DNA of 64,000 nucleotides, taken from NCBI RefSeq assembly GCF_025457605.1, contig NZ_JAMZFY010000002.1:186001-250000 (forward strand), in the 5' to 3' direction. Position numbers and translations under genes: made by a program. The notes under the pieces were generated by a model. That model worked only from the letters and a program-made list of their open reading frames with translations, made no database searches and was not told where the DNA came from. Every line of letters begins with the position of its first letter. The first letter of the stretch is position 1. Positions 20,693 to 41,837 of this stretch are shown one piece after another. Source of the stretch: Haloarcula laminariae. GTDB lineage: Archaea; Halobacteriota; Halobacteria; Halobacteriales; Haloarculaceae.

Positions 20693-22261
20693 GTGCCACT
20701 CTCGACCCCGGCCCGTATCGTCAGCGAGCTGGCCAGCCGCGGCTACAACGCCGAGCCGGAGGCCGTCACGCGGCTGGCCGGGGCGCCGGAGTCCGAGACA
20801 GCGCTCGAACGCGCACTGGAAACGATGCCCGACGACGCGCTGAAGCTCACCGCCGACCACGTCGATTCGGTCCTGGACCGGTCGGAGTCGCGGGCCGATG
20901 CCACATCTACACCCCGGAGCGATGTCGATAGTGGGGCCGAGAACCTCACTACCGAAGACCCCTCTGTTTCAACTGGAGCCGCGGGCCCGGAGTCGACAGA
21001 CAGCGGAAACGTCGCTCCAGTTGAAACGAAGGGGTCTCGCGACGTCGACGTCTCCCAGCGGGCCATCGAGGTCGCCAACGACATGACCGGCGACTCGACG
21101 GGGACCGGGGAGTACAACGATTTCGTCCAGGTGTTCCGTGACCGCTACGAGAAGCTCGCGAGCAAGCTTCGGGGCCGGGTCAACCACCGGCCGACCGACG
21201 CCATCGAGAACATGGGCGGGGGAAGCGAGGCCGCGCTCATCGGGATGGTCTCCGATATCCGCTCGACGGCCAGCGGCCACTGGCTGGTCGAACTGGAAGA
21301 TACGAACGGCACCTTCCCGTGTCTCGTGATGAAAGACCGCCCCATCGCCGACCTCGTCCAGCAGCTACTGCTCGACGAGGTCATCGCCGTCGACGGGACC
21401 CTGGCCGACGACGCCGGAATCCTGTTCGTCGACTCGCTACATTTCCCCGACGTCCCCCGGACCCACTCCCCCTCGACCGCCGACCGGCACGTCCAGGCCG
21501 CGCTCATCTCCGACGTCCACGTCGGCAGCCAGGAGTTCATGGCCGACGCCTGGCACCGGTTTACCGACTGGCTCCACACCCCCGAAGCCGAGCACGTCGA
21601 GTATCTGCTCATCGCCGGCGACATGGTCGAGGGCGTCGGCATCTACCCCGAGCAGGACGAGGAACTGGACATCATCGACATCTACGAGCAGTACGAGCAG
21701 TTCTCGGAGTACCTCAAGGAGGTGCCCGCGGACATGGAGATACGGATGATTCCGGGCAACCACGACGCCGTCCGGCTGGCCGAACCCCAGCCCGGCTTCG
21801 ACGAGGAGCTCCGCGATATCATGTCCGCCCACGACGCCTCCATCCACTCGAACCCGGCCCTCGTCACCGTCGAAGGGGTCACTATCCTGATGTACCACGG
21901 CGTCTCGCTGGACGAGGTCATCGCGGAGCTCCCCGACGAGAAGGCCAGCTACGAGGAGCCCCACAAGGCGATGTACCAGCTCCTGAAGAAGCGCCACGTC
22001 GCCCCCCAGTACGGCGGCCACACTCGGCTCGCACCCGAAGACAGGGACTACCTCGTCATGGAGGAGGTCCCCGACGTGTTCCACACGGGCCACGTCCACA
22101 AACTCGGCTGGGGGAAGTACCACAACGTGCTGGCGCTGAACTCCGGGTGCTGGCAGGCCCAGACGGAGTTCCAGAAGTCCGTCAACATCGACCCCGACGC
22201 CGGGTTCGCCCCGATTCTCGACCTGGACACGCTGGATATGACGGTCCGTAAGTTCACCTGA
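20693..22261 (+). CDS. polD1: DNA polymerase D small subunit (DP1)
   Basis: 522 residues from GTG at 20693; homologs begin with the same MPL.TPARIVSEL.SRGYNAE segment, so the TTG at 20630 was not used. Residues 1-70 are helical; about 70-140 is a disordered linker that carries two ORB-like DNA elements; an OB fold follows (AALIGMVSDIRSTASGHWLVELEDTNGTFPCLV); and a calcineurin-like phosphoesterase domain ends the protein, with LISDVHVGS, AGDMVEGVG, GNHDAVR and FHTGHVHKLG. This is the 3'-5' proofreading subunit that pairs with DP2 (814-4428). A three-hairpin intergenic element begins directly after the stop. Confidence 0.96.
   Translation: MPLSTPARIVSELASRGYNAEPEAVTRLAGAPESETALERALETMPDDALKLTADHVDSVLDRSESRADATSTPRSDVDSGAENLTTEDPSVSTGAAGPESTDSGNVAPVETKGSRDVDVSQRAIEVANDMTGDSTGTGEYNDFVQVFRDRYEKLASKLRGRVNHRPTDAIENMGGGSEAALIGMVSDIRSTASGHWLVELEDTNGTFPCLVMKDRPIADLVQQLLLDEVIAVDGTLADDAGILFVDSLHFPDVPRTHSPSTADRHVQAALISDVHVGSQEFMADAWHRFTDWLHTPEAEHVEYLLIAGDMVEGVGIYPEQDEELDIIDIYEQYEQFSEYLKEVPADMEIRMIPGNHDAVRLAEPQPGFDEELRDIMSAHDASIHSNPALVTVEGVTILMYHGVSLDEVIAELPDEKASYEEPHKAMYQLLKKRHVAPQYGGHTRLAPEDRDYLVMEEVPDVFHTGHVHKLGWGKYHNVLALNSGCWQAQTEFQKSVNIDPDAGFAPILDLDTLDMTVRKFT
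20956..20979 (-). promoter_or_regulatory. ORB-like element inside polD1 (left)
   Basis: Minus strand reads GCTCCAGTTGAAACAGAGGG then GTCT. It matches the ORB core (TCCA..TGAAAC..AGGGGT) and is the mirror partner of 21014-21037. Confidence 0.7.
21014..21037 (+). promoter_or_regulatory. ORB-like element inside polD1 (right)
   Basis: Reads GCTCCAGTTGAAACGAAGGG then GTCT; TGAAACGAAGGGGT is identical to the core of the strong left origin box. It differs from the left element of this pair by only two central bases (22 of 24 identical), with 34 bases between them. Confidence 0.75.
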
Positions 22262-22395
22262 ACCTTTTTCCTCGTCGCCCTTCCTTGCGAGCCTTCGGCT
22301 CGCTGCGGGAGGGCTCCTCGAAAAACGTTCGCGAAAAAGGCCGGAATCGGCGTGTGGCGCCGATTCCGGGGAAACCGCTCGCTGGTGACGAGCGG
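22262..22395. repeat. Three-hairpin intergenic element, copy 1
   Basis: Begins one base after the polD1 stop. Order: CCTTTTTC (22263-22270); hairpin 1 with GCGAGCC (22287-22293) / GGCTCGC (22297-22303) and outer GCCCT/AGGGC; a conserved 31-base block (22314-22344) that ends in GAAAAAGGCCGG; hairpin 2 of 12 bp (22341-22369, loop TGTGG); hairpin 3 CCGCTCG (22375-22381) / CGAGCGG (22389-22395). CCTTTTTC pairs with GAAAAAGG, closing the first part. The same architecture recurs at 41531-41649. Confidence 0.75.
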
Positions 22396-22608
22396 TATGC
22401 TGGTGGACAGCCTGCCTTTCCCCGTCTTCGCGCGATGGAACGCGCTCACGGCCACAGCGTCGGTGTCCCAGTACGGTCGTCGTCACCCGTGGATGCCCCG
22501 GCCGAGTGTTGTCATCAACTGACCCGCAAATTCGCCGCAATCGGCGACCACCGGCCGCTGTCGCCGCCCAGTAGGGAATTAAGGGGGTAGCCGTTCAACG
22601 TCCGCTGT
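22396..22608. other. Rest of the polD1-metY gap
   Basis: No gene recognised. A TATA-like GGAATTAAGG at about 22574-22583, roughly 26-35 bases before the metY ATG, is the likely metY promoter. Confidence 0.4.
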
Positions 22609-41322: not shown

Positions 41323-41452
41323 TGACACGTTCGACTGCGGTCCATCTGCCCGCACGCCGGGCCAGTGCCCCGGCGTACGCGCTACCCGAACTGTCCGACG
41401 CAGCCGCCCGATTCGCACGGTTTTTGACGGTGCCCCGTTTTGTCCTCCGTGT

Positions 41453-41527
41453 GGGCACATAGCTCAGCCCGGATAGAGCGTCGGACTTCTAATCCGACGG
41501 TCGTGGGTTCGAATCCCACTGTGCCCG
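41453..41527 (+). tRNA. tRNA-Arg (anticodon UCU)
   Basis: 75 bases. Acceptor GGGCACA pairs with TGTGCCC (41520-41526), discriminator G. D-arm GCTC...GAGC; anticodon stem TCGGA/TCCGA around the loop CTTCTAA (anticodon TCT); T-arm with GTTCGAATC. No intron. CCA is not encoded. A three-hairpin element starts four bases downstream. Confidence 0.95.
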
Positions 41528-41530
41528 TCG

Positions 41531-41649
41531 ACCTTTTTCGGCGTCGGGTTCGCGCTCCACGCGAACCACTCCTTGAAAAACGTCGATGAAAAAGGCCGGC
41601 ATCTCGCTCCGCTCGATGCCGGTGAACCGCGCTCGCTTCACTCGCGCGG
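41531..41649. repeat. Three-hairpin intergenic element, copy 2
   Basis: Same order of parts as 22262-22395: CCTTTTTC (41532-41539); hairpin 1 GGTTCGCG (41547-41554) / CGCGAACC (41560-41567); conserved 31-base block (41569-41599, 26 of 31 identical to copy 1) ending GAAAAAGGCCGG; hairpin 2 CCGGCATC (41596-41603) / GATGCCGG (41615-41622); hairpin 3 CCGCGC (41627-41632) / GCGCGG (41644-41649). Stem sequences differ from copy 1 but pairing is conserved. Confidence 0.75.
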
Positions 41650-41837
41650 ACATCCCGGCGGGGATTCGGTACCGTGTTTTGAACACTGTGGTACGGTACA
41701 ACTTGACGAGTACACCGGTTGGATGGGGACAGCAGTGACGCGGGCGATCGGCGTCGACCAATCGTCGTTTGACCAACTGACACGACACTTCTGACGGAGG
41801 AGCGATACCCCGTCTCCCCCTCGGAGTTCGGCTACTG
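41650..41837. other. Rest of the tRNA-Arg to hemAT gap
   Basis: No gene recognised. A nested inverted repeat, GTACC (41669-41673) / GGTAC (41690-41694) with inner GTGTT/AACAC, is present. It may end transcription from either side. Confidence 0.35.

Follow-up and report, generated by a model that had tools for sequence, protein, structure and literature searches.

What are the two intergenic elements that lie behind polD1 and a tRNA-Arg gene in a 64,000-nucleotide stretch of the Haloarcula laminariae genome (the window), and what keeps the arms of their hairpins matched while the stems diverge? A sequence-only reading of this DNA had described a shared order of CCTTTTTC, hairpin, 31-base block, hairpin and hairpin, and had proposed a structured RNA or a terminator/processing module and not a decaying repeat. 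We found this order to be identical in copies 1 and 2, the 31-base block to agree at 26 of its 31 positions (5 differ) and all three hairpins to have unlike stem sequences between the copies with the arms still paired. The linkage to gene 3' ends was also borne out. Copy 1 begins within the polD1 stop codon (TGA, 22259-22261) and sits directly 3' of this gene, which encodes the small subunit of DNA polymerase D (protein domains DNA_pol_E_B and Metallophos), and copy 2 abuts tRNA-Arg.

Order and positions therefore stood as described, while the extents and the outermost pairing had to be redrawn. From sequence, covariance model and folding, copy 1 spans about 22260-22401 and copy 2 about 41528-41653, both on the forward strand, and hairpin 1 is nested in a longer helix, P1, that reaches bases 5' of CCTTTTTC. 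The P1 5' arm of copy 1, GAACCTTTTTC (22260-22270, +), carries a top-strand T5C tract (T 22265-22269) and pairs, with one C.C mismatch, with the 3' arm GAAAAACGTTC (22320-22330, +), the bottom strand of which is a T5C tract. Folding places hairpin H1 (GCCCTTCC..GGGAGGGC; 22277-22314, +) just after a CGTC at 22273-22276, hairpin H2 at 22341-22369 (+) and hairpin H3 at 22374-22396 (+), followed by ATGCT (22397-22401); a second bottom-strand tract, CCTTTTTC (22333-22340, -), adjoins H2. The parts of copy 2 are the 5' arm TCGACCTTTTTC with its top-strand T5C tract (41528-41539, +; T 41534-41538), H1 (GGTTCGCG..CGCGAACC; 41547-41567, +), the 3' arm GAAAAACGTCGA (41575-41586, +), again a T5C tract on the bottom strand, the second bottom-strand tract CCTTTTTC adjoining H2 (41588-41595, -), H2 (41596-41622, +) and H3 (41627-41649, +), the hairpins again from folding and the last with a short stem of 6 bp. 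The RNA folding z-scores were -5.9 for copy 1 and -3.8 for copy 2, and none of 200 shuffles folded equally well. A covariance model (R1) built from 18 other family members, one from the same genome and neither window copy among them, recovered both copies when the window was searched with filters off (E values of 2e-18 and 7e-27); a third match was copy 2 on the opposite strand, and the window held no other credible match.

P1, which the first description had missed, is the main helix: the bases right before CCTTTTTC pair with the 31-base block according to the scheme NNAC-c-TTTTTC / GAAAAA-c-GTNN. In a non-redundant set of 87 of 130 copies, each less than 85% similar to one another, the two bases 5' of A-CC pair with the two bases 3' of GT in 87/87 and 86/87 copies, compared with shuffled means of 61 and 46 for these two varying pairs. 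The C.C mismatch within P1 is retained in 84/87 copies, a second A-run is conserved though unpaired, and P1 is never flipped to A5/T5 (87/87), the strand of the T tracts being fixed. Divergent forms of P1 are altered on both arms, as CTAAATTTT/AAAATTTAG at locus L165 and as CCACGTTTTT/AAAAACGTGG in another case, and in another family as TGGAccTTTTT/AAAAAtcTCCA. A pairing of CCTTTTTC with GAAAAAGG, the folding program's choice for copy 1, was rejected since it is the other pairing that persists in CGTTTTT variants and in divergent subtypes. The unit of P1 plus three hairpins measures 125-145 bp, with variable hairpin lengths, and has the consensus NN-A-C-c-TTTTTC [nnCGTC-H1-RCTCCYG] AAAAA-c-GT-NN-n-Y-GAAAAAGG, H2, GTGAA, H3, ATGCT. 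Both window copies have CGTC at the foot of H1, as do many further copies, and in the CCGCTC and CACGGGG subtypes it is replaced. Columns 19 and 48 of alignment A2, at the same foot, covary without being a standard pair: GTC goes with CTCC and GTT with CGCC (C.T to T.G), a hint that the mismatch is recognised. Other hairpin modules occur inside some elements, in the linker (ACGTGG..TGGCGAAAAAGG) or in H1 (TCTGCTCACGGGC..) (loci L132, L143, L145, L196 and L352; L026, L079, L143, L223 and L229).

The window copies are no mere pair; they belong to a dispersed, unnamed family that is order-wide in Halobacteriales. A core pattern with up to 3 mismatches matched 11 places in the H. laminariae genome and its reversed control none, while R1 found about 29 distinct copies in this genome and matches in 75 of 88 relatives and 39 of 45 genera. 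Copy numbers run to tens per salt-loving archaeal genome, and many of the per-genome counts are to be read as "at least". Among the named genera that carry the core are Haloarcula, Halorientalis, Natronomonas, Halomarina, Halosimplex, Halovenus and Salinibaculum. Matches in 197 genomes drawn from across the phylum were confined to 24, each a member of Halobacteriales; the few bacterial matches to the core pattern are due to chance, the CCTTTTTC arm being missing, and none of the 13 pattern matches in viral contigs contains the element. As the sequence-only reading had supposed, the family has no name: an Rfam search of the element gave no match, and no earlier description was found in the literature searched, most subscription papers lying outside that search. 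Halobacteriales thus gain a gene-end repeat family of their own, carried by most sampled genomes and absent from Rfam. That reading had named the want of further copies in related genomes, or of significant covariation in a larger alignment, as grounds for giving up the idea. Copies were many and covariation very strong, so that neither ground applied. Its view that this is not a decaying repeat was upheld.

Does the covariation mean that the element acts as RNA? Of the cells in the alignment of 18 sequences, 98.8% are paired; changes on both sides number 79 and one-sided changes none, and hence the stems show not a single one-sided G-U step. From 186 elements, 329 distinct hairpins were compared; 253 of these are perfect palindromes, and the 94 mismatches comprise 17 G.T, 23 A.C and 54 others, with no excess of wobble pairs read on either strand. 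In tRNA stems at the same loci, by comparison, 9 of 10 mismatches are G.T (p about 1e-5, the control being small). Selection for an RNA read from one strand or the other would be expected to raise one of the two wobble classes; as neither is enriched, compensatory change is no proof of RNA, and this part of the earlier argument loses support, while the terminator-like role that it also offered gives the best fit. Covariation is thus strong as in a structured RNA, without the enrichment in tolerated G-U wobble that would go with it. The earlier proposal of a structured RNA in the 3' UTR, acting in processing, stability or as a small RNA, can still draw on the very strong folding and covariation, the conserved unpaired bases, the fixed orientation behind genes and the recurrence of the same architecture across several families. 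We nevertheless consider it improbable given the wobble data and the T5C tract at the 5' end, which should halt forward transcripts ahead of H1-H3. A caution for RNA discovery follows, namely that very strong covariation can arise from DNA palindromes and that missing G-U steps expose it.

The hairpin arms look instead as if they were matched as DNA, a pattern that would fit copying, replacement or recency. About 15 stems occur with their loop in both orientations, which suggests DNA-level inversion or template switching. These stems and the 253 perfect palindromes could be taken to mean that GC-rich palindromes simply arise and are kept perfect through template switching, as a chance or mutational by-product with no function. 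The conserved unpaired sequence, the C.C mismatch in 84/87 copies, the fixed T-tract strand and the architecture common to several families need selection or common descent and argue strongly against such a by-product, which we regard as very improbable.

The genomic position of the element points to gene ends. With genes around 115 copies called simply by codon composition, the sequence just upstream is the end of a forward gene in 72 and of a tRNA in 9, about 50 of the stop codons precede CCTTTTTC by 1-5 nt, a convergent gene ends within 200 nt downstream in 77, and in only 8 does neither neighbour end at the element. The 29 copies of the H. laminariae genome comprise 11 between convergent genes, 13 between same-direction genes, 4 with a neighbour on one side only and 1 between divergent genes. 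The single divergent call is probably a miscall, since a forward stop codon sits directly at the element.

With moderate confidence, we read the element as a dispersed Halobacteriales DNA palindrome whose role at gene 3' ends is that of a two-way transcription terminator. A T5C tract is present on the top strand in 119/130 copies and two T5 tracts on the bottom strand in 126/130, counts to be read with a search pattern that favours both; 6 of the 25 T5 runs in the window lie within the two elements. Archaeal T-tract terminators are marked by a T4-T7 run in the coding strand past the gene, and the element has this mark. Termination reached 95% when T5C was inserted in a Haloferax reporter (PMC7237163), and good binding of Methanococcus aCPSF1 needed two U4 tracts (PMC8716108). 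In the proposed mechanism, the top-strand T5C tract a few bases past the stop codon or tRNA end would stop forward transcripts. This tract is one arm of the palindrome P1, and therefore the bottom strand has a T5 tract too; together with the second T5 tract beside the GC-rich H2, it would stop convergent transcripts. The hairpins would be kept matched as DNA and not as RNA, and copies would be gained, lost and exchanged via recombination or transposition. Judged from sequence, both a termination activity and termination as the selected function are likely. Compared with the aCPSF1/FttA-dependent T-tract (T5C) terminators of archaea, the element shares the T5C tract just behind genes and has two U tracts on its bottom strand with a hairpin adjoining, whereas the known terminators are short tracts with no repeat family, palindrome or two-way design (PMC7237163, PMC8716108), the activity of the element being putative. 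The family makes the evolution of archaeal terminators testable.

Several observations sit less easily with termination. A simple T tract would suffice to terminate, so termination alone leaves P1, H1, H2, H3 and the conserved C.C mismatch unexplained. Some genes that lack the element at the same locus also have no T5 tract nearby, and the element is therefore not required there. The C after T5 is not universal across subtypes, type B having T5A and T5G. The median 3' UTR in Haloferax, 97 nt (PMC7237163), exceeds the few bases expected here.

The element also turns over between species. At the polD1 locus, 20 of 30 congeners have a T5 element at the stop codon, a few more keep divergent remnants and others have none; at the tRNA-Arg locus it is present in about 9 congeners. 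At two further loci the subtype and the stop codon switch together between species, and a gene-end identity of 0.96 is found alongside an element identity as low as 0.64. In roughly one fifth of the copies (about 22/116), the end of the neighbouring gene recurs as a flanking direct repeat, scored at 19 or above with a 99th percentile of 13 in controls. These flanking repeats measure 23-94 bp, mostly start at the stop codon and end 0-12 bp 5' of CCTTTTTC. For one gene, the duplication is seen in 7 of 30 species, its inner breakpoint being almost constant. In species L356, two unlike elements lie upstream of the gene end, enclosed by gene-end copies that are identical, so that elements evolve faster than the sequence beside them. 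Tandem arrays measured 8.7 x 171 bp and 3 x 186 bp, the former in Salinibaculum litoreum CP046866 (L041, L064), where 8.7 identical 171-bp units consist of the element plus the 3' end of the neighbour gene. The element is often swapped between species, and whole-element replacement and gene-end duplications point to a recombining DNA element. These duplications may reveal how it spreads, which we find the most surprising point of the system.

Two simple origins of the repeats were rejected. A tandem duplication of element plus gene end, after which the first element was lost, accounts for the remnant cases only (L113, L041/L064) and fails at L039, whose outer copy lies directly against the stop codon of the neighbour, and at L030, which has no remnant at all. 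A diversity-generating retroelement was dismissed given that the gene-end copies read (L005, L009) differ not only at adenines.

The same turnover bears on a REP- or MITE-like origin, in which the element would be a non-autonomous mobile palindrome spreading as DNA, perhaps as a folded single-stranded hairpin recognised by a trans-acting enzyme, with the gene-end position left by the loss of insertions elsewhere and termination incidental. Presence, absence and subtype vary at orthologous sites, tandem arrays and flanking direct repeats of 23-94 bp are present, pairing is at the DNA level, and the conserved C.C mismatch and the CGTC tag at the foot of H1 are as in CGTC-tagged REPs (PMC3733652). 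Yet stop codons 1-5 nt before a T tract on a fixed strand look functional, and no mobilising gene emerged from the TnpA/TnpB count and IS605-flank comparisons. Two elements lie near 53 TnpA/TnpB loci, as expected by chance, IS605 flanks show no excess of elements, copy number tracks neither TnpA nor TnpB counts, and ten genomes without TnpA still carry 17-39 copies. Spread is apparently by a non-IS605 route, and we consider a mobile palindrome with incidental termination a somewhat unlikely account. Flank-linker covariation had prompted the idea of IS200/IS605-style guide-target pairing, which was dropped because the NNN in duplicated cases belongs to the element and not to the target, and because a TnpA/TnpB link is absent.

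Returning to the two-way terminator, a tentative and on present evidence unlikely extension is that it spreads by itself: it would insert at or behind stop codons (non-HUH), duplicate 60-95 bp of gene end and leave the gene intact with a new stop codon and terminator supplied. If true, gene 3' ends have been remodelled across a whole archaeal order.

The closest known repeat systems each differ from the element in some respects. Integron attC sites are conserved in fold, variable in sequence and located just behind stop codons. The element shares the fold conservation and the stop-codon position with them but lacks cassette arrays, and neither attC boxes nor a link to an integrase are apparent. 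REP elements, above all the CGTC-tagged ones, likewise are short palindromes downstream of genes with variable stems, an unpaired CGTC at the hairpin foot and no dedicated transposase (PMC3733652). REPs, however, are reported in bacteria as single hairpins of 20-40 bp, the CGTC-tagged ones having a single stem of 8-9 bp and a loop of 4-5 nt (PMC3733652), while the element spans 125-145 bp with three hairpins and T5 tracts and lacks the CGTC tag in some subtypes. The PATEs and small mobile repeats (SMRs) of Haloquadratum are transposase-free haloarchaeal repeats with palindromes or inverted ends too, and the mobilisation of SMRs is unknown (PMC3119063). PATEs relate to IS605 ends, having a near-terminal palindrome in common with IS605/IS1341 ends (PMC3119063); the element has no such link, its proximity to TnpA/TnpB being at chance. 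SMR copies are >95% identical within a type, produce no target duplication and target other mobile elements (PMC3119063), whereas this family is far more diverse (87/130 copies <85% similar), is located at gene ends and is flanked by gene-end repeats.

Further features were seen around the two window loci. At 22413-22427, a second conserved block, GCCTGCCYTTCCCCG, is followed by a hairpin; this pair also occurs at 34 places in related loci, often 10-60 nt 3' of H3. Matches to the tRNA-Arg(TCT) of the window (41452-41529) in congeners L167-L182 measure about 106 nt and not 78, and the one in L174 breaks at positions 40/41, a sign that many congeners may have an intron in the anticodon loop of this tRNA. 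In five others (L158, L159, L162, L163 and L166), an insert of 90-150 bp comes after tRNA-Arg; it contains a hairpin that resembles a T arm in antisense, and beyond it the tRNA 3' end occurs a second time.
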